Shown here: positions 2,881 through 17,711 of the stretch, piece after piece | Layout: every line of letters begins with the position of its first letter | How positions within the stretch are numbered: position 1 is the first letter of the stretch | Assembly: GCF_003569045.1 (NCBI RefSeq) | Contig: NZ_BFCB01000003.1 | Span: forward strand, 806,001 to 870,000 | Source: Aggregatilinea lenta | GTDB lineage: Bacteria > Chloroflexota > Anaerolineae > Aggregatilineales > Aggregatilineaceae | Length of the DNA: 64,000 nucleotides | Direction: 5' to 3' | Translations under genes and position numbers: made by a program | Notes under the pieces: generated by a model | The model's database searches: none | Told to the model about the DNA's origin: nothing | What the model saw: only the letters and a program-made list of their open reading frames with translations

Positions 2881-3801
2881 CTAGAGGCCCATGCGCAGGT
2901 GGATCGCGTAGAACAGGAAGCGACCCAGCACTTCGGCGATGAGCACGACCGCGAACGCGCCGTAGGCGAAGTTCACCATCTGGCGTTCCTTCTTCAGGGT
3001 GGCGGTCGTATAGAGGAACACGCTGAACAGTACCGCGCCGATGACGCCCAGCGCCAGCCGCAGCGCGAAGATCACGCCGTATTCGCTGGTCAGCTTGCTG
3101 GCGCTTTCGACGGCTATCGCGTTGCCATTGGACAGATACGCGACGTAGAGCGGCATGACGATCAGCTCGATGCCGACCAGGACCATCGCGCCCAACGCGA
3201 TGCCCTGCAGCGACGCGCGCAGCAGATCGGCCTGGACAGACAGGTCAGCCAGATTCGGCTTGGACTTCAGGTAGGTATAGTTCGCCACGAAGGCAGCGCC
3301 CATCGCCAGCCCGCCAAGCAGGAAGGTGGTCACGAAGAACGTAATTGGCGTCGCGGCAGTGTTCCAGGCCGGTTCGAAGTCCAGCATGTAGACCTGGGAC
3401 ATGCAGAAGACCAGCACGAGGCCCGCCAGCGCAGTCACCACGGCCAGGATGCGGCGCACCTGGAAGGTCGCGATCTTGCGCCACTGAAGGAACGCGAAGA
3501 CCGCGCCCAGGCCCGTGAACAGGACCGTAGCGAGGATCTCGCGGCTCAGCCAGGAACTGTCGATGTTGAAGATCGCGCGGTATGCATTCACCGGGTTACC
3601 CAGGTGCAGCAGGGAGACGATGACGCCCAGCACGATCGCCGGGCCAATCGCCAGCAGCGCGCGGTCGCTCAAAGCATCGGCTTCTTTTTCGTTCGACTTA
3701 CGCAGGGCGTAGGTGTGCACCAGGCCCAGGATGAAGAACGCGCCGACGGACATTTGGGTCAGAATAGTATAGGCGATAAGTGCCCATTCTTTGGTATTCA
3801 C
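2881..3801 (-). CDS. dmsC: DmsC-type membrane anchor of a DMSO reductase-family enzyme
   Basis: 306 residues, almost entirely hydrophobic, with roughly eight membrane segments. It matches the DmsC anchor family, which oxidises quinol and passes electrons to the iron-sulfur subunit. A conserved LLHLGNP motif is seen near residue 65. Translation starts at GTG (3799-3801) with GAGGAG upstream. The gene starts 2 nt after the dmsB stop. It is the last gene of dmsABC, before the terminator at 2801-2836. No heme-ligand signature is obvious, as expected for DmsC rather than NarI. Confidence 0.85.
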   Translation of the reverse strand: MNTKEWALIAYTILTQMSVGAFFILGLVHTYALRKSNEKEADALSDRALLAIGPAIVLGVIVSLLHLGNPVNAYRAIFNIDSSWLSREILATVLFTGLGAVFAFLQWRKIATFQVRRILAVVTALAGLVLVFCMSQVYMLDFEPAWNTAATPITFFVTTFLLGGLAMGAAFVANYTYLKSKPNLADLSVQADLLRASLQGIALGAMVLVGIELIVMPLYVAYLSNGNAIAVESASKLTSEYGVIFALRLALGVIGAVLFSVFLYTTATLKKERQMVNFAYGAFAVVLIAEVLGRFLFYAIHLRMGL

Positions 3802-3803
3802 AG

Positions 3804-4427
3804 CTACAGCTCCTCACTGTTGGCGATTGCACCGACGTTGGAGTCGTGCGTCATCGTGGCCGTCTTGCGCGGCGTGAAGACCATGTTGGGCTTGGTGATC
3901 GACGGGTCCACCAGCGGCGCGGGATCGTCGAAGTTGCCATACTTCTCGCGCAGTTCGTCGATGGGGCCGTAGTCCAGCGCGCGGAAGGTGCAGCCCGCGA
4001 CGCAGGCGGGCTTTTCGCCCTGAGCGAGCAGGTCCACGCACAGATTACATTTGGTCATTACGCCCTTGTCGGCGTTGAACTGCGGTGCGCCGTAGGGGCA
4101 GGTCCATTCGCAGTAACGGCAGCCGACGCACTTATCCTGGTCGATCTCGACGATGCCATCTTCATTCTTTGTGATGGCCGCCGCCGGGCACACGTCCATG
4201 CAGAGCGGGTTGTCGCAGTGCATGCACGATACCGAGACGAAGTACGAAAAGACGTTTGAGGGCACGTACTGGTTGCCGCTCTTGATCCACTCGCCACCGG
4301 TGTACTGGGCGACGCGGCGCCAGATCACATCCATCGGCAGGTCGTTCTTGTCCTTGCACGCGATCTGGCAGGCCTTGCACCCCGTGCATTTCGAGAGATC
4401 GACGTGAAAACCGAGTTGAGTTGCCAT
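3804..4427 (-). CDS. dmsB: DmsB-type four-cluster ferredoxin subunit
   Basis: 207 residues. It is the electron-transfer subunit between the membrane anchor and the molybdenum subunit. Four cysteine groups are visible: CTGCKACQIAC, CMHCDNPLCMDVC, CVGCRYCEWTC, and a split group CNLC...CVAGC. Together these fit four [4Fe-4S] clusters. There is no signal peptide, as normal for DmsB/NrfC-type subunits that travel with their Tat-targeted partner. GGAG lies 6-7 nt upstream of the ATG. It follows dmsA after 13 nt. Confidence 0.92.
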   Translation of the reverse strand: MATQLGFHVDLSKCTGCKACQIACKDKNDLPMDVIWRRVAQYTGGEWIKSGNQYVPSNVFSYFVSVSCMHCDNPLCMDVCPAAAITKNEDGIVEIDQDKCVGCRYCEWTCPYGAPQFNADKGVMTKCNLCVDLLAQGEKPACVAGCTFRALDYGPIDELREKYGNFDDPAPLVDPSITKPNMVFTPRKTATMTHDSNVGAIANSEEL

Positions 4428-4440
4428 GTTTTGCTCCTAC

Positions 4441-6849
4441 CTACGCCTTCTCAACCTGCACGAGGTTGGTGTGCTGCGGATTCCCCTTGGCAAACGGGGT
4501 GGGGTGATATTTGGTGAGTGTGTTGATGCAGCCACCCTTGTCCAGACCGTTTGAATCGGGGTCGTACCAGTGTCCTTGCGGTACGGAGATGACGCCGGGA
4601 CGGATGCGCGGCGTCACGCGGGCTTCGATTTCGATCTTGCCCCGGTCGTTGAAGACGTGGACCGTATCGCCGTTTTCGATGCCACGGTCGGCAGCGTCGA
4701 GCGTGTTGATCCACATGACGTGGTGGTGCGCTTCTTCCAGGTAGTCGATGCCACTGAACGTGGAGTGCGAGCGCTGGACGGCGTGCGAACCGATCATCAT
4801 CAGCGGATAGGTATCGCGCAGCGGGTCACTGACGCCTTCCCATTCGGGAATGTACTTGGGAATGGCCGGAATTTCTTCCGGGTCGTTCAGCGCGGCCAGG
4901 GTCGGCGAGTAAATTTCGATCTTACCCGTGGGGGTGGACAGCGGGTTGGCTTCGGGATCTTCCACGAAGTCCGCCGCGCCGATCACCTGACCGGAAGTCG
5001 TCTTCTTGTAGATACCCACTTCCTTGAATTCTTCGAAGGTGGGGAAGTTTTCGTCCTTTTCGCGCGCGGTGTCCACCATGAAGCGGATCCAATCCTCGGT
5101 GGTTTCCTTGCCCTCGCGGAAGGCATCCAGGACGCCGAGACGGTCGGCAAGCTGGTCGGCCATCCAGATTTCCGGCATGTCCTCGAACAGCGGCTCGATC
5201 ACCTGATGGCTGTACATGGCCCACGCGACGCGGCCCGAACCACCGCCGGTGATGACGTTGTCCGTCTCGAAACCGGTGCAGGCGGGCAGCAGGATGTCGG
5301 ACCACATGGCGCTCGGCGTCATCATGACTTCGCAGGTGACGATGAGTTCCAGCTTCGTATCGTCACTGAGGATTTCTTGCGTCAGGTTGATGTCCGAGTG
5401 CTGGTTGGTGATGGTGTTGCCGCCGTGGTTCCACATGAACTTCATGTTGGCGTTGAGCTTCTCGACGCCCTTGATGCGGTCGTCGGGGCCGCTGGTCATT
5501 TCCGTGCCGCGCGTGATCATATCCGGCCACATGAAGACCGAAATCACGCCCTTGATCGGATTATCGCCCGTCGGGACGCTGCCCATGCTGATGGACGAGC
5601 CACGACCCACGGTTGCACCGGTGCCGCCGCCGTGAATGCCGAAGTTGCCGGTCATCGCGGCCAGGATCGGGATGGCGCGAACGGGCTGTTCGCCGTAGGC
5701 GCGGCGCTGGAAGCCCAGGTTTTGCACGATGGCGCACGGCTTGGTCTGCGCCATGTCGTACGCGAGGCTGACGATGCGCTCCGCCGGGATGCCGGTAATT
5801 TCGGCGGCCCATTCGGGCGTCTTCTCGACGTCGTCGGCGTCGCCCATGACGTAGGCCATCCACGAGCTGTTCTTGGGGGCATCTTCCGGCAGGGTATCTT
5901 CGTCGAAGCCGACGGAGTACTTCGCCATGAATTCCTTGTCGTACAGGTCGTTTTTGATCATCACGTGCGACAGGGCCGCGACCAGCGCGACGTCCGTGCC
6001 GGGGTTGATCGGAACCCACTCGGCTTCGAGCGCGGCGCAGCTATCGGTCATGATCGGGTCGATGCAAATGAAGCGTGCGCCGGCCTCTTTGGCCTTCATG
6101 CAGTGGTAGCCCACGTTGTCGCCGCCGCTGGTGGTGACAACCGGGTTCGAACTGAACAGCACGACCAGCTTGGAATTGAGCATGTCGTCTGCCGAGTTGT
6201 TCGCGCCACCCGTGATTAAAGGGATCACGGCGGAATAGCAGGCCGAGCTGTACGTGCCGTAATAATCGGTGTAGCCGCCGAACAGGCGCATCAGGCGGCG
6301 GACGGGGTTACGCCCGTTGGGGCCGGGCCACTGCGTGCCGGATGCGTAGTGGAAGTAAAAAGATTCGTTCCCATAGGTTTCTTTGAGGCGCGTCATTTCC
6401 GAAGCGATGGTGTCCAGCGCCTCTTCCCAACTGATGCGCTCAAACTTGCCTTCGCCGCGCTTGCCGACGCGCTTCATCGGGTACTTCAGGCGTTCGGTCG
6501 AGTAGACGCGGTGGATCTGTGCGCGACCACGCAGGCACGGGATCGAGCGCGGCTGGTCGATGGTATCCACTTCGTCGATGTCGGGCACGAGACGCTTCAC
6601 CACGCCGTCCTGAACGTCGGCGTAGAGAATGCAGCGACCGCCGCAGTTGTGGTAGCAGGCGGTGGTGACGAGCTGCGAAGCGCCTTCTGCGGTACGGCTG
6701 GCTTCAGCCGTCTGCGTGCTGTGTAGAGCTGTTCCCAACCCTCCAGCCAACGCCGCGGTTCCACCCAGGGCCGAGCTCCATTTTACGAAGCTGCGGCGGG
6801 TGAGCACTGCGTCGTCGAGAATCTTTGAAAGCATTTGATTCTGACCCAT
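4441..6849 (-). CDS. dmsA: Tat-exported molybdopterin oxidoreductase, DmsA type
   Basis: 802 residues from the preferred ATG at 6847-6849. An ATG two codons earlier (6855) abuts the Shine-Dalgarno AGGAGG, so the later one has the proper 6-nt spacing. The N-terminus carries a twin-arginine signal TRRSFVK (17-23) and a hydrophobic stretch. A [4Fe-4S] site has Cys65, Cys69, Cys73 and Cys105. The molybdopterin-binding core follows, with a serine-rich stretch GTYSSA near residue 201 where DmsA-type enzymes place the Mo-ligand serine. The C-terminal domain ends in LVQVEKA. It would reduce an S- or N-oxide or similar acceptor outside the membrane with quinol electrons delivered by DmsBC. The substrate cannot be fixed from sequence. 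No dmsD-type chaperone gene is seen nearby. Confidence 0.9.
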   Translation of the reverse strand: MGQNQMLSKILDDAVLTRRSFVKWSSALGGTAALAGGLGTALHSTQTAEASRTAEGASQLVTTACYHNCGGRCILYADVQDGVVKRLVPDIDEVDTIDQPRSIPCLRGRAQIHRVYSTERLKYPMKRVGKRGEGKFERISWEEALDTIASEMTRLKETYGNESFYFHYASGTQWPGPNGRNPVRRLMRLFGGYTDYYGTYSSACYSAVIPLITGGANNSADDMLNSKLVVLFSSNPVVTTSGGDNVGYHCMKAKEAGARFICIDPIMTDSCAALEAEWVPINPGTDVALVAALSHVMIKNDLYDKEFMAKYSVGFDEDTLPEDAPKNSSWMAYVMGDADDVEKTPEWAAEITGIPAERIVSLAYDMAQTKPCAIVQNLGFQRRAYGEQPVRAIPILAAMTGNFGIHGGGTGATVGRGSSISMGSVPTGDNPIKGVISVFMWPDMITRGTEMTSGPDDRIKGVEKLNANMKFMWNHGGNTITNQHSDINLTQEILSDDTKLELIVTCEVMMTPSAMWSDILLPACTGFETDNVITGGGSGRVAWAMYSHQVIEPLFEDMPEIWMADQLADRLGVLDAFREGKETTEDWIRFMVDTAREKDENFPTFEEFKEVGIYKKTTSGQVIGAADFVEDPEANPLSTPTGKIEIYSPTLAALNDPEEIPAIPKYIPEWEGVSDPLRDTYPLMMIGSHAVQRSHSTFSGIDYLEEAHHHVMWINTLDAADRGIENGDTVHVFNDRGKIEIEARVTPRIRPGVISVPQGHWYDPDSNGLDKGGCINTLTKYHPTPFAKGNPQHTNLVQVEKA

Positions 6850-6911
6850 ATTCATCCTCCTAAAGCCTTACTCCTCAATTTCCAGCAACAACGCGCATAG
6901 CCGGACGGAGT

Positions 6912-7879: not shown

Positions 7880-8938
7880 TCAGCTGCACGCCTGGATCGC
7901 GGCGCGAATATAGCCCAGCGCAAAGGCCATGCCCGCGTGCCAGGGCGCGTCGCACGTCATTTGCGGCGTGTGATCGGGAATGATCACACCTTCGAACCGG
8001 TTCTGGAGCAGGATGCGGATCACCCGGATCATGTCCACGTCCCCCTCGTCCACGAAGACTTCGTGATAGCGCGGGACTTTGCCGCGAATGTTGCGGAAGT
8101 GGATGTACGCCACGTCGTCCTGGCGTGTGTAGGTGTCCACCACGTCGTAAATGTCGCCCTCGGTCATTTCCGCCAGCGAGCCGATGCAAAATTCCAGCGC
8201 GTTGGCCGGACTGGGATGCAGGTCGAGCACGCGCTGGTAGATTGACGGCTGGTAGACCAGCCGCGCCGTGTCGCGCAGCGTGGGCAGAGGCGGGTCGTCG
8301 GGATGCAGCGCGACGCGCACGCCCGACGCTTCCGCCACGGGCAGCACGGCATCCAGAAAATCTTTCAGCCGCGCCCACAACTGCGCCTGCGTGACCGTGC
8401 CAATCGTGCCCGGCCCGGCTCCGGCGTCGTAGATCATGTTCCAGACCATGCCGCGCGGGATCTGCGTTTCTTGCGGGCCGTCCGCGCCCAGGAAGCTGAC
8501 CGAGGTCGCGCCGCCGCGCGCGTAGGGGCCTTCGACATGACCCCATACCCCGGCGAGGCTGAAGTTATACCCCAGGACCGGGATGCCGACCTCACCGAAC
8601 CGCCGGATGATGGCCTTGACCGTTTCAAGCTGCTCCGCCTTGCGGGGGCCGTCAAGCAGGACGTCGTACCACAGCATGGGGTCCAGGTTCTCGACCGCGG
8701 CCAACGCCAACCCTTCCGCCTCGATGGATGCCTTGAGCGCGGCGAGATTCTCCGGCTGCCAACTGGCGAGGCCGGTCCCCGCGACGCCCCAGCCATCATC
8801 GCGCGTAGTGGGGATGCGCGGGCCTTCTGCGAAGTAGTCGCAGAGGTGCGCCACGATGGCGGTCGCGCCCGCCTGCCGCGCGAAGCGGTAGTTGTCCTGC
8901 GTGAGCATATGCCGGTAGAGGCCGAGTCCAAGCTGCAT
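7880..8938 (-). CDS. uxuA: Mannonate dehydratase
   Basis: 352 residues. It dehydrates D-mannonate to 2-keto-3-deoxygluconate in hexuronate catabolism. It belongs to the xylose-isomerase-like TIM-barrel family. Conserved pieces seen are ALHPDDPP, the metal-binding VAYIHFRNI segment and the late DHTPQM motif. It is somewhat shorter than E. coli UxuA (about 394) but normal for the short bacterial form. The start at 8938 has AAGGAGC upstream. It is preceded on the same strand by an SDR gene that could make its substrate. No uronate isomerase (uxaC) is in the window. Confidence 0.88.
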   Translation of the reverse strand: MQLGLGLYRHMLTQDNYRFARQAGATAIVAHLCDYFAEGPRIPTTRDDGWGVAGTGLASWQPENLAALKASIEAEGLALAAVENLDPMLWYDVLLDGPRKAEQLETVKAIIRRFGEVGIPVLGYNFSLAGVWGHVEGPYARGGATSVSFLGADGPQETQIPRGMVWNMIYDAGAGPGTIGTVTQAQLWARLKDFLDAVLPVAEASGVRVALHPDDPPLPTLRDTARLVYQPSIYQRVLDLHPSPANALEFCIGSLAEMTEGDIYDVVDTYTRQDDVAYIHFRNIRGKVPRYHEVFVDEGDVDMIRVIRILLQNRFEGVIIPDHTPQMTCDAPWHAGMAFALGYIRAAIQACS

Positions 8939-9122: not shown

Positions 9123-9875
9123 CTACAGCCCAATCGAGATGCCGCCGTCGACGGTCAGCAGCGTACCGGTGACGAAGCGCGCTTCCGGCGCGCTGAGATA
9201 CACCGCCGCCCAGCCCACGTCCTCCGGCTGCCCGAACCCGGCCATCGGCGTGCGGCTGAGGATGCGTTCCTTGCGCGCGGGATCTTGTTCCAGCGCGCCG
9301 TGCATCATCGGTGACTCGATCCAGCCCGGCGCGATGGCATTAACGCGAATACGCGCCGGAGCCAGCTCGACGGCCATCGTGCGCATCAGGCCCAGGATCG
9401 CGGTCTTGGCCGCGGCGTAGGCGACGACTTCCGGCAGGCCCATCAATGAGGCCATCGACGCGATGAACAGGATGTGCCCGCTCCCGTGGCGCTTCATCGA
9501 CGGGATCAGCGCGCGGGACAGGGCGAACGCGCCCAGCACGTGCGTGTCGAGTACGGTTTGTAGCTCGGCGGGCGTAGTGTCTTCCGCCGGTTTCTTCAGG
9601 TGGATCCCCGCGTTGTTGACCAGGATCGAGATCTCGCCGTGCTGCGCGACGATCTGCGCAGCGACCTGCTCCATTCCATCCAGATCGGTCACGTCGAGGA
9701 TAGCGTAGCTGGCGCGCGGTCCCAATTCCTCCACGGCGGTGCGCAGCGGGTCCTCGCGGCGGCCCGCGATAATCACGTGTGCGCCTGCCTCGACGAAGCA
9801 CCGGGCGATGCCCAGACCCAGGCCAGTCCCGCCGCCGGTAATCAACGCCGTGTCGTGCTCAAGAGTAAACGCCAT
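9123..9875 (-). CDS. Short-chain dehydrogenase/reductase, probable D-mannonate (fructuronate) oxidoreductase
   Basis: 250 residues from the ATG at 9873-9875. A GTG two codons earlier overlaps the AGGTGAG ribosome-binding site, so it is less likely. The Rossmann motif TGGGTGLGLG is near residue 14, NNAG near residue 85, and the catalytic Ser with YAAAK around 135-155. These are classical SDR features. The neighbouring uxuA suggests reduction of fructuronate to mannonate, as done by SDR-type UxuB/YjmF enzymes. That substrate is inferred from context. A gluconate or 3-oxoacyl substrate cannot be excluded. Confidence 0.8.
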   Translation of the reverse strand: MAFTLEHDTALITGGGTGLGLGIARCFVEAGAHVIIAGRREDPLRTAVEELGPRASYAILDVTDLDGMEQVAAQIVAQHGEISILVNNAGIHLKKPAEDTTPAELQTVLDTHVLGAFALSRALIPSMKRHGSGHILFIASMASLMGLPEVVAYAAAKTAILGLMRTMAVELAPARIRVNAIAPGWIESPMMHGALEQDPARKERILSRTPMAGFGQPEDVGWAAVYLSAPEARFVTGTLLTVDGGISIGL

Positions 9876-9991
9876 GATCACTCACCTGTGGGCTGCGATG
9901 CTGTGCCGGGACGGCCTGTAACTCTCGAAGCTAATCTTAACATCGATTGCCCATAATGCAACATGTTACCTTTTGGTTGTGGCGGGCACCC

Positions 9992-10063: not shown

Positions 10064-11068
10064 CTACACGCTCCGCAGGCTCCCACTGAAGCGGTGGCGC
10101 AGCGCCTCGATGCCCAGCGCGGTGATAATGATCATGCCCACGGCCACATACTGCCAGTAGGCCCCGACGTTGAACAGGTTCAGCGCGTTGTTGATCACGG
10201 TGAAGAACAACGCGCCGGTAAACGTACCGAACAGCGTGCCCGACCCGCCCTTGAGGCTGGTCCCGCCGACGACTGCCGCCGCGATCACGCGCAGCTCGTA
10301 ACCCTCGGCCATGATCGGCTGCGCCGAGGACAGGTAGCCCGTCAGCGCGATCCCGGCCAGCCCGGTGCACAGGCCGACCAGCGCGAAGGCGAAGATGCGC
10401 ACGCGGTCCACCGGGATGCCGCCCGCGAAACTCGCGTTTTCGTTGCTGCCTACCGCGCGGATGAAGCGCCCGTAAGTCGTGTACTTCACGATGCCGAACA
10501 GCACCACGTAGGTGACGATCATGATCAGGAACGGGATCGGCAGGCCGAGGAAGTCGCCCGTGCCCACCTTGCGGAACGCCTTGTCGGTGACCGGGACGAC
10601 CTGCCCATCGGTGATGATGAAGCCGATCGCCAGATAAATGTACATCATACCCAGCGTGGCGATGAAGGCGGGAATCTTGATTTTGGTGACCACCAGCCCA
10701 TTGGCGATGCCCAGCCCGATGCCGAGCAGGATCGTCACCAGGATCGCGGGCAGCACGCCTGCGTCCGGCAGAATCTGCGCCAGCACCACGCCGCATAGCC
10801 CCAGCAGGCCTGCCACGGACAGGTCGAATGCACCGTTGATGATCAGCAGCGTCATGCCCGCCGCGCCGATCCCGGCGAAGGACGTCTGCCGCAGCACGGA
10901 GAGGATGTTCGCTTCCTGCCGGAAGTTGTCATTGCTCAGGCTCAGCCCGATGACCACGACCAGCAGCAGGCACTGAATGGTGTATTGGGTCAGAATGCGC
11001 TGGACCCAGTACAGCGGGCTGCGCGGCTGGCGCTCATGCAGGCCAGACACATCGGTGACGGCGCTCAT
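10064..11068 (-). CDS. Sugar ABC transporter permease, RbsC/XylH type (second copy)
   Basis: 334 residues, with about nine or ten hydrophobic segments. It is a member of the branched-chain/ribose permease family and pairs with the permease just upstream to form a heterodimeric channel. The ATG (11066-11068) overlaps the preceding stop as ATGA, with GGAGGTG upstream, so an open frame continuing upstream of 11068 is not part of this protein. Typical motifs are GIGAAGMTLLIINGAFDLSVA near residue 65 and GGTSLKGGSGTLFGT near residue 260. It is the last gene of the operon. Confidence 0.9.
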   Translation of the reverse strand: MSAVTDVSGLHERQPRSPLYWVQRILTQYTIQCLLLVVVIGLSLSNDNFRQEANILSVLRQTSFAGIGAAGMTLLIINGAFDLSVAGLLGLCGVVLAQILPDAGVLPAILVTILLGIGLGIANGLVVTKIKIPAFIATLGMMYIYLAIGFIITDGQVVPVTDKAFRKVGTGDFLGLPIPFLIMIVTYVVLFGIVKYTTYGRFIRAVGSNENASFAGGIPVDRVRIFAFALVGLCTGLAGIALTGYLSSAQPIMAEGYELRVIAAAVVGGTSLKGGSGTLFGTFTGALFFTVINNALNLFNVGAYWQYVAVGMIIITALGIEALRHRFSGSLRSV

Positions 11069-12084
11069 CGCACACCTCCGGTCACGACGCGCTTGATGAT
11101 CGCGCGACGGGCGGTGTCGAGACTCAGCGCCAGGATGAGCAGCAGCCCCAGCGCCAGGTACTGGTAAAACGGCGGCACCTTTAGAATGTTGAGCGCACTG
11201 TTGATGGCCGCGATAAGCAAAGCGCCCAACAGCGTGCCGGGCAGGTTGCCGCTGCCGCCCGCCAGACTGGTGCCGCCCAGCACGGTCACGGCGATGGCCT
11301 GCAGCTCCAGTCCCTTGCCCAGTGTGCCGTCCACGAACAGCAGTTGCGCGCTGAGCATGATGCCGGACAGCGCCGCCGCCATGCCGACCAGCCCGAACAC
11401 GATCACACGGGTGAGGCCGATGCGCAGGCCGGTCGCGCGTGCCGCGTTCTCGTTGCCGCCGATGGCGCACACGTGCCGCCCGAAGGGGGTATGGCGCAGC
11501 AGCACGTAAAAGAATAATAAGGTCACCAGCGCGATGATGAACGGCATCGGCAGGCCCAGCACCTTGCTGGTGTTCAACGCGGCGAAGTCGTCGTAACCCA
11601 TGATCAGGATCGACTGCCCGTCGGTGTAGAGCAGCGCTGCGCCGCGCAGCACGCTCATCATCCCCAGCGTGGCGACGAAAGCGGGAACCTTCAGGCGGCT
11701 GATGATCACGCCGTTCACCACGCCCACCAATAGTCCGATCAACAGCGTCGCGCCGATGGTCAGCGGCATGCTGGTGCGGGTCAGCAGGTCGGCGGCGATA
11801 CACGCGGTCAGTGCCTGATTGGACCCCACCGACAGGTCGAGGTCACCCATCGCCACCGCGATAGTCATGCCCAGGCCGGTGACGGCGATGATCGAGCCGG
11901 TGATGACGATGTTGTTCAGGTTGTTCGTGTTCAGGTACACCGGCTTGATGGCCGCCATGACCCCGAACAGAACCAGCAGCATGACCAGCACGCCCAGGCT
12001 TTCAAAGATCTGGAAGAAACGCAGGATGAACGGCAGGGGCTTGTCCCCTGGTGCTGCTGCGGGGGTAGCGATTTGAGCTTCCAT
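11065..12084 (-). CDS. Sugar ABC transporter permease, RbsC/XylH type (first copy)
   Basis: 339 residues from the ATG at 12082-12084, 4 bp after the ATPase stop. An upstream in-frame extension would run into the ATPase gene and is rejected. Multiple membrane segments are seen, with MGDLDLSVGSNQA near residue 80 and GGTSLAGGSGNLPGT near residue 265, typical of ribose/xylose importers. It partners with the downstream permease (ATGA overlap) and the ATPase at 12089-13600. Confidence 0.9.
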   Translation of the reverse strand: MEAQIATPAAAPGDKPLPFILRFFQIFESLGVLVMLLVLFGVMAAIKPVYLNTNNLNNIVITGSIIAVTGLGMTIAVAMGDLDLSVGSNQALTACIAADLLTRTSMPLTIGATLLIGLLVGVVNGVIISRLKVPAFVATLGMMSVLRGAALLYTDGQSILIMGYDDFAALNTSKVLGLPMPFIIALVTLLFFYVLLRHTPFGRHVCAIGGNENAARATGLRIGLTRVIVFGLVGMAAALSGIMLSAQLLFVDGTLGKGLELQAIAVTVLGGTSLAGGSGNLPGTLLGALLIAAINSALNILKVPPFYQYLALGLLLILALSLDTARRAIIKRVVTGGVR

Positions 12085-12088
12085 CACT

Positions 12089-13600
12089 CTATCCCTCTTG
12101 CTTCGCATGGGCGACGGCGCACGCGAGAATGTTGTCTTCGGTAATTTGCGAGCCTTCGAGCACCGCCGCGACACGGCCCGCGCTCAGCACAATGCAGCGG
12201 TCGCTGACCTTGACCAGCTCCGGCACGTCCGACGAGCTGACGATCACGGCGCGGTGTTCCTGGGCCATCTGCCGAATCAGCTCGTGGATCTCGACCTTGG
12301 TGCCCACGTCCACGCCCCGGCTCGGCTCGTTCAGCAGCAGGATGCGCGCCTGGCTGACCAGCGCGCGGCCCAGCAGTACCTTCTGCTGGTTGCCGCCGCT
12401 CAGCGTGGAGATGAGCTGCGTGCGGCTGTGGGCCTTGATCGAGAGTTTGTCGCGGATCTCCTGGTATTTGCTGCGCTCGGCAGCCAGCGCCAGGAAGAAG
12501 CGCGCCAGGACGCTTTCGTCGTTGCGCGGGCGCTTGATGACGAGGTTGTCCAGCACGTCCAGATCGGGGAAGATGCCTTCCAGCTTGCGGTCCTCCGGCA
12601 GCATGAAGATGCCTTCGCGAAGGGCCTGCATCGCGCTGCGGACCTTCGTGGGGCGACCGTCAATCGCCACTTCGCCCGCGGCGGGCGTCTGGATCCCGAA
12701 CAGGGCGCGCATCAGCTCCGAGCGGCCCGACCCGATCAGGCCCGCCACGCCCAGAACCTCGCCGTAGTGCAGGTCGAACGACGCGCCGCGCAGCGCGGGC
12801 GGCACGGTCAGGTCGCGCACGGCCAGCGCCGGACGACCTTCGGGGTCCGCGCCTTTTTCGACACTGTAGTTAGCCAGCTCGCGACCCAGCATCATGGTGA
12901 TGACGTCGTTTTCGGCCAGCCCCTCAATGTCGCGCGTATCGACGCGGCGCCCGTCGCGCAGCACGGTGACCCGGTCCGCGATGCGGAAGATCTCCGAGAG
13001 CCGGTGCGAGACGTACAGCACCACGACGCCGCGCTGGCGCAGGCTGTCGATGATCGAGAACAGGCGCTCGACCTCGGCGCTGTTGAGCGCGGCGGTCGGC
13101 TCGTCCATGATCATCACGCGGAAATCGCGCGAGAGTGCTTTGGCAACTTCGACCAACTGCAGGTCGCCCACGCTCAAATATTCCACACGCAGCCGGGGCG
13201 ACAGGGACAACCCGAGTTCGGCCAGAAGCTCGGCGGAACGGGCATTCATCGTTTTCCAGTCCACCAGGCCGGTGATGAGGCGCGGCTCGCGCCCAAGGAA
13301 GATATTCTCAGCGATGCTCAACTGCGGGATGAGGTTGAACTCCTGGTTAATGACGCTGATGCCCGCCGACTGTGACTGTATCGGATTGTCGAACTGGACG
13401 GTCCGGCCATTCATGACCAGCGTGCCGGACGTGGGCTGGTATTGGCCCGCGATGATCTTGATCAGCGTACTTTTACCGGCTCCGTTTTCGCCGACGAGCG
13501 CGTGCACTTCGCCGGGAATCAGCTCCAAATCGACGTGGTCGAGAGCCAGCACCCCGGGAAATTGTTTGGTGATCTGTTTCACCTCAAGGATTGGTTCCAC
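12089..13600 (-). CDS. Sugar ABC transporter ATPase with two nucleotide-binding domains (RbsA/MglA/XylG type)
   Basis: 503 residues. The first ABC domain has Walker A GENGAGKST (about 38-46) and a Walker B ending IMDEPTAALN. The second has a degenerate Walker A GLIGSGRSEL, the usual pattern in this family, and signature LSGGNQQKV. It powers the two adjacent permeases. Translation starts at GTG (13598-13600) with AAGGGGA upstream. The gene is separated from the binding-protein gene by a very stable stem-loop (13672-13699). Confidence 0.93.
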   Translation of the reverse strand: MEPILEVKQITKQFPGVLALDHVDLELIPGEVHALVGENGAGKSTLIKIIAGQYQPTSGTLVMNGRTVQFDNPIQSQSAGISVINQEFNLIPQLSIAENIFLGREPRLITGLVDWKTMNARSAELLAELGLSLSPRLRVEYLSVGDLQLVEVAKALSRDFRVMIMDEPTAALNSAEVERLFSIIDSLRQRGVVVLYVSHRLSEIFRIADRVTVLRDGRRVDTRDIEGLAENDVITMMLGRELANYSVEKGADPEGRPALAVRDLTVPPALRGASFDLHYGEVLGVAGLIGSGRSELMRALFGIQTPAAGEVAIDGRPTKVRSAMQALREGIFMLPEDRKLEGIFPDLDVLDNLVIKRPRNDESVLARFFLALAAERSKYQEIRDKLSIKAHSRTQLISTLSGGNQQKVLLGRALVSQARILLLNEPSRGVDVGTKVEIHELIRQMAQEHRAVIVSSSDVPELVKVSDRCIVLSAGRVAAVLEGSQITEDNILACAVAHAKQEG

Positions 13601-13719: not shown

Positions 13720-15612
13720 TTAGGACATGAAGTCCGCGACGTTATCCGCCGTCACGACATCGACGGGGAAGAAGATCGAGCGGCTGTCCGCGTCCGAGTA
13801 CTCAATCGAACCGCCGTCGAGCAGGGTGATGGCGGCTTCCACGGCTGCACGGCCCTGGCCGTAGGGGTCCTGGCGGATGGTGGCGGCCATTTCACCGGCT
13901 TCGATCAGCTCGAGCGCGGGGGCGTCCCCGTTGAAGCCGACCAGCAGCACGTCGTCCACGCCGTTCAGCCCGGCAGCCTTGAGCGCCTGTGCGGCACCGA
14001 TGGCTTCGGGGTCGTTGGTGGCGTAGATCGCGGCCAGCTCAGGATTGGCCGAGAGCGTGTCCTGGGTGACCTGATAGCCGCCCTGGACCGTGTCGTTGCC
14101 GTTCAGCGAGGCGACGATCTCGAAGTCGTCGTGCAGGGCGATCTCGTCCGCGAAGCCCTTGGCGCGTTCTTCACCGACCGCCGAACCGGGGTGCAGCTCG
14201 ATGACCAGGACCTGCTTGGTGCCTTCGACGTCACTCAGTTGATCCACGACGTACTGCGCCGCGAGCTTGCCGCCCTCGTAGTTGTCGGACAGCACGAACG
14301 CGTCATAGTCGCCTTCCGCACCGACGTCGCCGATGATCACGGGGATCTTGGCTTCGTGGGCGGCGTCGATCGAGGCGGGCAGCGCCGAGGGCTGCACCGG
14401 GGAGACCACCAGCGCGCTGATGCCCTGGTTGATCAGGTCGAGGCTGCCGGAAACCTGAGTTTCCTGGCTGCTCTTCTGGTCGGACAGCACGAATTCGGCA
14501 CCGGCGTCCGCCGAGGCTTCTTCCACGCCACGTGCGTATTCCTGCCAGTAGGGCTGCTGCATGTCGTACACCGAGTAACCGACGATGAACGGGTCCTTCT
14601 TCTCGAAGGCCGACTCACCCGCCGGTTCTTCGGTCGCTTCGCCGCTCATGAATTCGGCGACGTTGTCCGCCGTCACGACATCGACGGGGAAGTAGATCGA
14701 GCGACTGTCCGCGTCCGAGTACTCAATCGAACCGCCGTCAAGCAGGGTGATGGCGGCTTCCACGGCGGCACGGCCCTGGCCGTAGGGGTCCTGGCGGATG
14801 GTGGCGGCCATTTCACCGGCTTCGATCAGCTCGAGTGCGGGGGCGTCCCCATTGAAGCCGACCAGCAGCACGTCGTCCACGCCGTTCAGCCCGGCAGCCT
14901 TGAGCGCCTGCGCGGCACCGATGGCTTCGGGGTCGTTGGTGGCGTAGATGGCGGCGAGTTCGGGGTTAGCCGAGAGCGTGTCCTGGGTGACCTGATAGCC
15001 GCCCTGGACCGTGTCGTTGCCGTTCAGCGAGGCGACGATCTCGAAGTCGTCGTGCAGCGCGATCTCGTCCGCGAAGCCCTTGGCGCGCTCTTCACCGACC
15101 GCCGAGCCGGGGTGCAGCTCGATGACCAGGACCTGCTTGGTGCCTTCGACGTCGCTCAGTTGATCCACGACGTACTGCGCCGCGAGCTTGCCGCCCTCGT
15201 AGTTGTCGGACAGCACGAACGCGTCATAGTCGCCTTCCGCACCGACGTCGCCGATGATCACGGGGATCTTGGCTTCGTGGGCGGCGTCGATCGAGGCGGG
15301 CAGCGCCGAGGGCTGCACCGGGGAGACCACCAGCGCACTGATGCCCTGGTTGATCAGGTCGAGGCTGCCGGAGACCTGGGTTTCCTGGCTGCTCTTCTGG
15401 TCGGACAGCACGAACTCGGCCCCGGCGTCCGTGGCGGCTTCTTCAACGCCACGCGCGTATTCCTGCCAGTAGGGCTGCTGCATGTCGTACACCGAGTAAC
15501 CGACGATGAACGGATCTTTCTTCTCAAAGGGGGTATCGCCCTGTGCGGCCACAGAGCCGACGCTCATCGCGACCAGAACCAGGCAGAACACGAACAAATT
15601 CAATTTACGCAT
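13720..15612 (-). CDS. Sugar-binding protein with two tandem, nearly identical periplasmic-binding domains
   Basis: 630 residues, about twice the normal length for an RbsB-type (Peripla_BP_4) protein. A signal peptide (1 to about 24, ending VAAQ) is followed by domain 1 (29-323), a linker GEATEEPAGESA (324-335) and domain 2 (336-630). The two 295-residue domains differ at only four positions by my reading (Ala-Thr versus Ser-Ala near the N-end, Tyr/Phe and Glu/Asp near the C-end). Silent differences are scattered along the DNA. The protein captures a sugar for the ATPase and two permeases downstream. The D-lyxose isomerase-like gene upstream suggests a pentose or hexose such as lyxose, xylulose or mannose. 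A binding protein fused to a second copy of itself is unusual for a type I sugar importer. Confidence 0.92.
   Translation of the reverse strand: MRKLNLFVFCLVLVAMSVGSVAAQGDTPFEKKDPFIVGYSVYDMQQPYWQEYARGVEEAATDAGAEFVLSDQKSSQETQVSGSLDLINQGISALVVSPVQPSALPASIDAAHEAKIPVIIGDVGAEGDYDAFVLSDNYEGGKLAAQYVVDQLSDVEGTKQVLVIELHPGSAVGEERAKGFADEIALHDDFEIVASLNGNDTVQGGYQVTQDTLSANPELAAIYATNDPEAIGAAQALKAAGLNGVDDVLLVGFNGDAPALELIEAGEMAATIRQDPYGQGRAAVEAAITLLDGGSIEYSDADSRSIYFPVDVVTADNVAEFMSGEATEEPAGESAFEKKDPFIVGYSVYDMQQPYWQEYARGVEEASADAGAEFVLSDQKSSQETQVSGSLDLINQGISALVVSPVQPSALPASIDAAHEAKIPVIIGDVGAEGDYDAFVLSDNYEGGKLAAQYVVDQLSDVEGTKQVLVIELHPGSAVGEERAKGFADEIALHDDFEIVASLNGNDTVQGGYQVTQDTLSANPELAAIYATNDPEAIGAAQALKAAGLNGVDDVLLVGFNGDAPALELIEAGEMAATIRQDPYGQGRAAVEAAITLLDGGSIEYSDADSRSIFFPVDVVTADNVADFMS
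13723..14607. repeat. Tandem in-frame gene duplication, copy 2 (C-terminal domain)
   Basis: 885 bp encoding residues 336-630 of the binding protein. It aligns without gaps to 14644-15528 at a constant offset of 921 bp (307 codons). Scattered silent differences show it is a real duplication and not a simple sequence-assembly repeat. Confidence 0.9.
14644..15528. repeat. Tandem in-frame gene duplication, copy 1 (N-terminal domain)
   Basis: 885 bp encoding residues 29-323. It is the partner of 13723-14607. The period of 921 bp includes the 36-bp linker. Confidence 0.9.
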
Positions 15613-15777: not shown

Positions 15778-16473
15778 TTACTTGCCGGATAGTTTGTCGA
15801 TGTTCGGATAATCGCCGAACAGAAGGTGGGTCGGAGGCTCGTCTTCGATGACGTCCGGTAGGCGTCCTGTGGCGGCGTAGAAGCGGTTGTCCACCCGGTC
15901 GTCGCCGACGGTCGAGACTTCGCCGAGCAGCGTCATACCGGTGCCTTCTTCGCCCCAGAACTTGTGATACTGCCCCGGAACCAGTGTGATGCTCTGGCCG
16001 GGCGTGAGCCGCACCACGCCGCCCGGTTCGACGGTGACCTGCTGGCCGTCCATCGTCACGGTGATCGGCTGGTCGGAGTAAGAACCGTCTTCGTTCATGC
16101 CGTACAGCTCGATCATGACGTTGCCGCCACCGCGATTGATGATGTCTTCCATCTTGCGGTAGTGGGTGTGCGAGGGCAGGATCTGGCCTTCTTCCTGGAT
16201 CAGGATGCGCTCGCAGTACGGCTTGATGTACCTGGAATCGTTGAAGTTGCCGTTGCGCAGGGTGAACAACAGCAGGCCGACGCTGTGGAAGTCGCCGCTG
16301 CCAAAGTCGGTGACGTCCCAGCCCAGCATGTTGTCTTTGATCTCGTCGAATTCCGGCCCCTTGGCCTGCCAGTCCTCCGGCGACCAGTAGGCGAACATAG
16401 GCAGCTTGAAGTGCATCTGTTCGACGAACTCAAGTCCCTGATCGATGATGTGGTTCAACTCAGAGCGTTTCAT
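15778..16473 (-). CDS. D-lyxose ketol-isomerase family cupin protein
   Basis: 231 residues from the ATG at 16471-16473. A GTG four codons upstream overlaps the GGAAGG ribosome-binding site and is less likely. The cupin metal site is visible as LPSHTHYRKMEDI followed by NRGGG (about residues 115-135), with a later GQYHKFWGEEGTG motif. D-lyxose isomerases interconvert D-lyxose and D-xylulose and often D-mannose and D-fructose. The gene lies between the LacI regulator and the binding protein of the ribose-type importer. It is therefore probably the first catabolic step for the imported sugar. Confidence 0.85.
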   Translation of the reverse strand: MKRSELNHIIDQGLEFVEQMHFKLPMFAYWSPEDWQAKGPEFDEIKDNMLGWDVTDFGSGDFHSVGLLLFTLRNGNFNDSRYIKPYCERILIQEEGQILPSHTHYRKMEDIINRGGGNVMIELYGMNEDGSYSDQPITVTMDGQQVTVEPGGVVRLTPGQSITLVPGQYHKFWGEEGTGMTLLGEVSTVGDDRVDNRFYAATGRLPDVIEDEPPTHLLFGDYPNIDKLSGK

Positions 16474-16682
16474 GCAACCTTCCACCTTCTAGATGTGACG
16501 AAATAGTCCAACACTCGCGCATGAGCGAGATGGTAAACGACTACTCTGCCTGGAAAGCCCCAATCGTTTCAGTCCTAGAAGGACAATGTCGCTGGTAGAT
16601 CGCGTTACGCTGTGCGGTCGAGGTGCAGTGCTCAGTAAACGCACTATCAGCTAACAATTTTGCGAACGGTTCTTTTCAATCT
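16474..16682. other. Gap between lacI regulator 1 and the lyxose isomerase-like gene
   Basis: No gene. A GCGAACGGTT motif at 16662-16671 also occurs at 15658-15667, just before the binding-protein gene. Both share GAACG with the operator at 17766-17807. An internal promoter is possible but none is clear. Confidence 0.3.
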
Positions 16683-17711
16683 TTATGCGGACGCTGCCGG
16701 TCTGCCGGTCGAGTTGCGCACCACGAGCTTCGGCTCGCACACGACCTGCGACTGTTCAGGCTCCTGGCCCGCCAGAATGTCCAACAAAATCTTGATGCCG
16801 GTCGTCGCTACGTCCACCAGACTTTGACGCACGGTGGTCAGCGGAATGATCTGGTAACTGGACAGTTCGATGTCGTCGATGCCGACCACCGAGATGTCGT
16901 CCGGAATGCGCAGGCCCGCTTCGATGATGGCGCGCATCGCACCGATCGCCATGCGGTCGTTGCCCGCGAATACGGCGGTGGGGCGGGGCTGCGCCTGGAG
17001 CAGTGCGCGCATCGCCTGATAGCCCGATTCGGCGCTCCAACTGTCGTCGCCGCACACGGAGATCGCGGAGGGCAGGCCGTGCTGCCGGATGATCTCCTGA
17101 AAGCCATCCAGACGCTCGCGCGAGAGCAGCAGGTCCATCGGGCCGCTGATGTGCGCGAAGTTCACGTGCCCCAGCTCGATCAGGTGCTCGGCCACCATGC
17201 GGCCCGTCTTGAGGTTGTTCAACACGACCGAGGGGCCGTCGTAGTTGTTCGGGATACGGTCGATGGCGACGACCGGGATGTTGGCCTCTTGCAGCGTTTC
17301 CAGGCCATGCATCTCGTCTTTGGTCGAGACGAACAGCAGCCCGTCGATCCAGCGCTGGGTCGCCATGCGGATGTAGTTCTTTTCGCGCTCAAGGTCGCTG
17401 TGGGTATTGTAGAGTAGCAGGCTGTAGCCGGAGGCATGCGCGTGATCTTCGACCGTGTTCGCCATCGAGGCGAAGAAGGGATTCGTGATGTCGGAGACGA
17501 CCAGCGCGATGGTTTGCGTCGCTCCGGTGCGCAGGCTGCGCGCGACGGCGTAAGGGCGGTAGCCGACTTCTTCAATCGCGGCCAGAACGCGCTCGCGCGT
17601 TTCTTCCGAGATCGTTTCTTTGTTGTTGACCGCCACCGATACGGTCTGGACCGAAACTCCGGCCAACCGGGCGACGTCTTTCATCGTGGGACGCTGATGT
17701 CTCCGTGGCAT
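16683..17711 (-). CDS. LacI-family transcriptional repressor 1
   Basis: 342 residues. The N-terminal helix-turn-helix (about 9-30, MKDVARLAGVSVQTVSVAVN) is followed by the hinge helix ending in VARSLRTG and a periplasmic-binding-like sensor domain (about 65-335). It is the first gene of the lyxose isomerase/ribose-type importer operon and probably senses that sugar. A promoter with a 17-bp spacer and a multi-half-site operator lie directly upstream, so it is probably autoregulated. Confidence 0.93.
   Translation of the reverse strand: MPRRHQRPTMKDVARLAGVSVQTVSVAVNNKETISEETRERVLAAIEEVGYRPYAVARSLRTGATQTIALVVSDITNPFFASMANTVEDHAHASGYSLLLYNTHSDLEREKNYIRMATQRWIDGLLFVSTKDEMHGLETLQEANIPVVAIDRIPNNYDGPSVVLNNLKTGRMVAEHLIELGHVNFAHISGPMDLLLSRERLDGFQEIIRQHGLPSAISVCGDDSWSAESGYQAMRALLQAQPRPTAVFAGNDRMAIGAMRAIIEAGLRIPDDISVVGIDDIELSSYQIIPLTTVRQSLVDVATTGIKILLDILAGQEPEQSQVVCEPKLVVRNSTGRPAASA

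Follow-up and report, generated by a model that had tools for sequence, protein, structure and literature searches.

The window analysed here, a 64,000-nucleotide stretch of an Aggregatilinea lenta contig (NZ_BFCB01000003.1), carries on its minus strand an open reading frame (13720-15612) for one secreted protein of 630 residues, in which two RbsB-type (Peripla_BP_4) domains are each complete. This gene, its parts and its neighbours are located as follows.

16683..17711, minus strand: LacI-type regulator (Pfam)
15778..16485, minus strand: D-lyxose/D-mannose isomerase family protein, upstream (above the Pfam cut-off, below the NCBIfam equivalog cut-off)
13720..15612, minus strand: tandem RbsB-type substrate-binding protein gene, 630 aa (open reading frame, repeat comparison, Pfam)
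15541..15612, minus strand: Sec-type signal sequence at the N terminus, residues 1 to about 24, without lipobox cysteine (translation read)
14644..15528, minus strand: receptor domain copy 1, residues 29-323 (repeat comparison, Pfam, family profile)
14608..14643, minus strand: linker GEATEEPAGESA, residues 324-335 (repeat comparison)
13723..14607, minus strand: receptor domain copy 2, residues 336-630 (repeat comparison, Pfam, family profile)
12089..13600, minus strand: RbsA/AraG-type ATPase with two ABC_tran stretches (Pfam and a further profile match)
11065..12084, minus strand: permease 1 (BPD_transp_2), likely start 12084 (Pfam)
10064..11068, minus strand: permease 2 (BPD_transp_2), likely start 11068 (Pfam)
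9123..9881, minus strand: SDR oxidoreductase, downstream (profile match)
7880..8938, minus strand: mannonate-dehydratase-like protein (match below cut-off)

The two domains form a 295-residue direct repeat, and the 12 residues that join them are acidic and unique in the protein. The copies differ at exactly four amino acids (A/S, T/A, Y/F and E/D; repeat positions 32, 33, 279 and 292) and at 35 of 885 nucleotides, of which 28 are silent third-position differences, two fall in one silent serine codon and five in the four replaced codons. Positions 279 and 292 lie outside the stretch aligned to 2ioy and the E. coli ribose-binding protein, and positions 32 and 33 do not align with the residues that we take to contact ribose. 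Pfam placed Peripla_BP_4 twice in the protein (whole-protein E 6.1e-112, 373.8 bits, cut-off 35.1), the family profile scored the two domains alike (323 and 320 bits), and the closest solved structure was 2ioy, a single ribose-type receptor (E 3.7e-38). The translation, read by eye, begins with one Sec-type signal sequence that presumably ends near residue 24 according to the usual cleavage rule; a lipobox cysteine was absent from it both by eye and by pattern match. No membrane domain was matched by Pfam, the receptor being a separate gene that is not fused to a transmembrane subunit, and no listed NCBIfam receptor equivalog reached its cut-off. A structure model of the tandem, predicted from an alignment of two rows, was of poor quality (mean pLDDT 41.8, pTM 0.29). 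An earlier note on this DNA had described one frame with a single signal peptide, two domains that are each complete and differ at about four residues, and a short acidic linker; the reading frame, the repeat comparison and Pfam agree with it on all these points.

A double-ABC ATPase and BPD_transp_2 permeases adjoin the receptor gene, as for a CUT2 or RbsB-type system. On the reading favoured below, the gene product is a secreted receptor whose two equivalent domains serve an ABC sugar importer of the CUT2 (ribose/arabinose) type. Farther along the window (2881-6855), three genes resemble, by eye only, a molybdopterin oxidoreductase, its iron-sulphur subunit and a membrane anchor.

Tandem receptors were common elsewhere in the A. 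lenta genome (6.2 Mb, 5 contigs). Nine of its 22 Peripla_BP_4 proteins above 130 bits (31 matches) are tandems; the 22 include three proteins left out of further study (C3:264302, C3:1296702 and C3:1320417). The next protein below this set, at 101 bits, is the LacI regulator of the window. A BPD_transp_2-type permease adjoins all nine tandems and a double-length RbsA-type ATPase adjoins eight; at the ninth, L047 on C3, the tandem and its permease are accompanied by a shorter, apparently single-domain ATPase in place of the RbsA-type one. Within the stretches fetched, seven of the nine loci have one permease gene and two have two, which argues against the simple idea that the two domains need separate docking sites, and a pair of permease genes was therefore rejected as the cause of the two receptor domains. 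None of the 51 SBP_bac_8 matches in the genome was a tandem; a 909-residue open frame was seen with one SBP_bac_8 match (G000:C2:9940-10845). Five Peripla_BP_6 matches were above cut-off, and one of them is fused to a Peripla_BP_4 domain in an 812-residue frame (L053:5824-8259, on C2) that adjoins one ATPase and two permeases. In addition, a Peripla_BP_4 protein without a visible signal peptide (L046:4811-5764, on C3) clustered with a related tandem receptor, and is possibly its cytoplasmic paralogue.

A search of related genomes for double-length Peripla_BP_4 proteins found many. With a profile (A1) built from 17 tandem proteins, and counting as full-span the matches that covered at least 540 of its 577 positions, tandems were found in 31 of the 61 genomes sampled from the host's order (at most 22 candidates scored per genome), including A. 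lenta and 13 genomes of one genus, g35; three further genomes (G536, G060 and G015) gave partial or split matches. The earlier note's statement that tandems are rarely seen for RbsB-like proteins is not supported in this lineage, as 9 of 22 strong proteins in one genome and 31 of 61 sampled genomes of the order speak against it. In the host's class, Anaerolineae, at least 24 of 199 genomes had full-span matches with heterotypic tandems counted, a lower bound because only six candidates were scored per genome; G239, of the same class, has two domains with a shorter profile match (28-504). In a phylum sample of 301 genomes (four candidates per genome), full-span matches occurred only in A. lenta, and the shorter one recurred in G239; outside the class, 12 genomes gave 14 strong matches, each of which covered a single domain. 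Two other Chloroflexota classes gave no full-span tandem at E <= 1e-80 in 101 genomes (at most 13 candidates scored per genome) and 25 genomes, and two long frames from these classes (L103 and L173) had one domain each; the tandem was thus not seen as a general trait of CUT2 receptors. Of 1037 plasmid records with a match, the best 25 and a spread of 60 (two shared) each matched over less than 1 kb. Searches of open-licence full text listed work on GlnPQ, but among the titles and abstract openings listed none dealt with tandem RbsB-type receptors or with such a feature in Anaerolineae.

The tandem proteins varied in both the number and the likeness of their domains. Among 32 fetched from A. 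lenta and its relatives, the identity between the first and second domains (D1 and D2) was 77.9-100% in 31, L011 being compared over 82 residues only, and 27% in L021. Three-domain receptors were found in other families of the class, namely L066 (domains 66-72% identical), L118 (90-95%) and L084 (two domains alike, the third distant), which indicates changes in copy number. A heterotypic group from three families (L078, L080, L081 and L115) has domains 30-37% identical, possibly for two different ligands in one receptor; together with L021, these show that a tandem can exist with unlike domains. In a tree built from 98 domains, each the first or only one of its protein, parsimony required 20 changes between the tandem and single states, at least nine of them forced by well-supported branches, although the tree has many long branches and uncertain placements and its sample follows the fetched loci.

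In the genus g35, all 13 sampled species retain the tandem, with closely similar linkers, and D1-D2 dN/dS is 0.10-0.35. In ten of these species, first and second domains fall into two separate clades (support 97/90 and 99/100). Homogenised copies were found in L155 and, in their common ancestor, in L027/L151; as the copies in 10 of 13 species are unhomogenised, conversion must be episodic. In one pair of g35 genes, L160/L163, domain 1 is much closer (dS 0.14) than domain 2 (dS 0.69), possibly owing to transfer of one domain between species. The retention in g35 bears on a neutral reading, in which in-frame direct repeats arise and homogenise simply since such genes recombine, the double form bringing no benefit. 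Repeated gains or losses and the existence of both two- and three-domain forms would fit such instability. However, direct repeats of 0.9 kb that are almost identical should collapse frequently, whereas all 13 sampled g35 species have kept the tandem, ten of them with long-separated copies and with both copies under purifying selection, and the tandem form is missing from the SBP_bac_8 receptors of A. lenta. We consider the neutral reading unlikely.

Another reading ascribes the advantage not to faster transport but to the retention of an unanchored receptor in the cell envelope, through its size or its double binding. The absence of the lipobox pattern from all 32 tandems of the host's order (a flag on L030 was set aside, the cysteine being upstream of the start) fits this reading, but the same pattern was matched in 18 of 22 tandems from other families of the class (pattern match only). 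A missing lipid anchor was thus rejected as the general cause of tandems, and retention in the envelope appears improbable as the explanation.

Comparisons of the domains within and between genes further showed internal homogenisation in several groups of tandem genes. In a FastTree tree of 157 domains, the domains of 41 out of 54 multi-domain proteins (those with fetched loci, not all that exist) were each other's closest relatives. Silent divergence within the gene (NG86) was at most 0.5 in 28 of 32 tandem genes, and lower than the divergence between species at the same position in 36 of 41 pairs; of the five exceptions, three are pairs that involve the heterotypic L021, and the others are L022/L023 and L030/L037. 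In several orthologue groups, linkers and junctions are common across genera or families and the domains are alike within each protein. We then compared conversion-type with orthology-type nucleotide sites in four-way alignments of 13 pairs, counting runs in 5000 shuffles. Clear blocks of sites were found in L022/L023, L007/L030, L035/L059, L014/L017 and L030/L037, where no shuffle out of 5000 had as few runs. In these five pairs the tandem is older than the split of the orthologues and the repeats were copied onto each other later, so that conversion in related tandem genes is directly demonstrated. The signal was weaker in L007/L036 (p 0.0004), L018/L019 (p 0.006) and L005/L027 (p 0.014), and not significant in L054/L056 (p 0.057); the alignments of L006/L024, L022/L026, L003/L016 and the window gene with L011 had one orthology-type site or none.

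For the window gene itself, the two copies differ by dN of about 0.007-0.009 and dS of 0.15 to 0.25 depending on the method (295 codons), or by dN 0.003 and dS 0.13 with NG86 over the 261-codon domain core. Silent changes thus exceed replacement changes, and both copies are under purifying selection; this and their equal match to the family profile suggest that both domains are likely functional. The scatter of silent differences agrees with the earlier view that the duplication is not brand new. The silent divergence within the gene, 0.13, compares with 0.75-0.83 to the orthologue in G060; within that orthologue, dS between the two copies is 0.09 over 82 codons. The clustering of differences (29 changes, one a replacement at codon 292) was weak: the longest run of identical codons was 60 (182 nt; p 0.024), and the window variance of the differences gave p 0.10. 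The comparison with G060 offered few orthology-type sites in four-way alignment. The earlier note had proposed gene conversion or selection on the protein. Selection is upheld, and conversion is likely given the direct evidence from related genes, but the window gene, a weaker case than its relatives, is itself only consistent with it.

A scheme of independent recent duplications in each lineage, with no conversion, would account for low D1-D2 divergence gene by gene. It could hold for the window gene and its G060 orthologue, which have their junctions at the same position but no clearly common linker and are possibly two separate duplications. As a general scheme it is contradicted by the linkers and junctions held in common across genera or families while domains are alike within the protein, by the mosaic blocks of sites and by the old D1 and D2 clades in g35; we regard it as improbable.

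Short reads have difficulty with such repeats, and orthologues on four named contigs from three genomes (Anaerolineae or Anaerolineales MAGs) all break off inside the gene, as expected if their copies are nearly identical too. However, one contig of Anaerolineae bacterium SJ7 (JADZBY010000178.1) runs from the last part of domain 1 across the junction and through the whole of domain 2, and this junction together with the scattered silent differences speaks against both chance and an exact-copy assembly artefact. A chimeric or duplicated contig is scarcely credible, given 35 scattered differences, a unique linker, a genome of only five contigs, the junction in another organism and the recurrence of this architecture across the order (31 of 61 genomes).

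These results support that the tandem receptor of the window is real and under selection, and that its class contains many others. The explanation that we favour, and think probable, is that these are bivalent CUT2 receptors that evolved recurrently, were selected and were homogenised episodically by intragenic recombination, the advantage in transport being our inference. Tandem and triple receptors would have been gained or lost repeatedly within Anaerolineae, the tandems being kept under purifying selection on both domains and their repeats occasionally homogenised by recombination within the gene, whether by gene conversion or by unequal crossing-over. The two domains may share one sugar as ligand and take turns at docking on one permease; each secreted chain would then amount to two receptors, and a second loaded domain would stay near the importer. 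More broadly, and at somewhat less than an even chance, the class may have repeatedly made its CUT2 receptors, not its SBP_bac_8 receptors (as judged from one genome), into chains of two or three domains re-copied within the gene, a multivalent strategy apart from permease-fused receptors.

What is surprising is not the single gene but the breadth of the phenomenon, its restriction to CUT2-type receptors in the A. lenta genome and the internal homogenisation. Tandem receptors clearly exemplify concerted evolution within bacterial genes, and their near-identical internal repeats offer a reason why some assemblies break inside such genes. The dozens of free tandem receptors, together with single-, two- and three-domain relatives, offer a natural set for testing receptor valency against uptake. 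If the broader reading is true, their multivalent strategy would be distinct from that of the known permease-fused receptors.

Compared with known systems, each repeat of the window gene is a complete Peripla_BP_4 domain like RbsB and other CUT2 receptors (2ioy, 1dbp and YtfQ), and an RbsA-type ATPase and BPD_transp_2 permeases lie beside it as in RbsB-type systems. Unlike the two-domain window receptor, the solved relatives are single (at most 362 residues each among the best 60 of 67). OpuA-type importers, in which the receptor is fused to the permease, carry more than one receptor per importer; they resemble the window gene in the number of receptors and differ from it in the fusion and in the receptor family. 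To our knowledge, several receptors per importer are known mainly from permease-fused systems. The analogy with fused Opu/Gln receptors drawn in the earlier note thus holds for the presence of tandem receptors but not for the topology, as those receptors are fused to a membrane subunit. GlnPQ has two receptor domains in one chain, with a short flexible 14-residue linker in GlnP; ligand binding by one is largely independent of the other, their ligands and affinities differ, and both are fused to the membrane domain (PMC8025302). By analogy with them, each domain of the window receptor should be able to bind and dock alone. The window receptor shares with GlnPQ the tandem domains in one chain and the short linker, but it is a separate secreted protein with near-identical domains and belongs to another receptor family.
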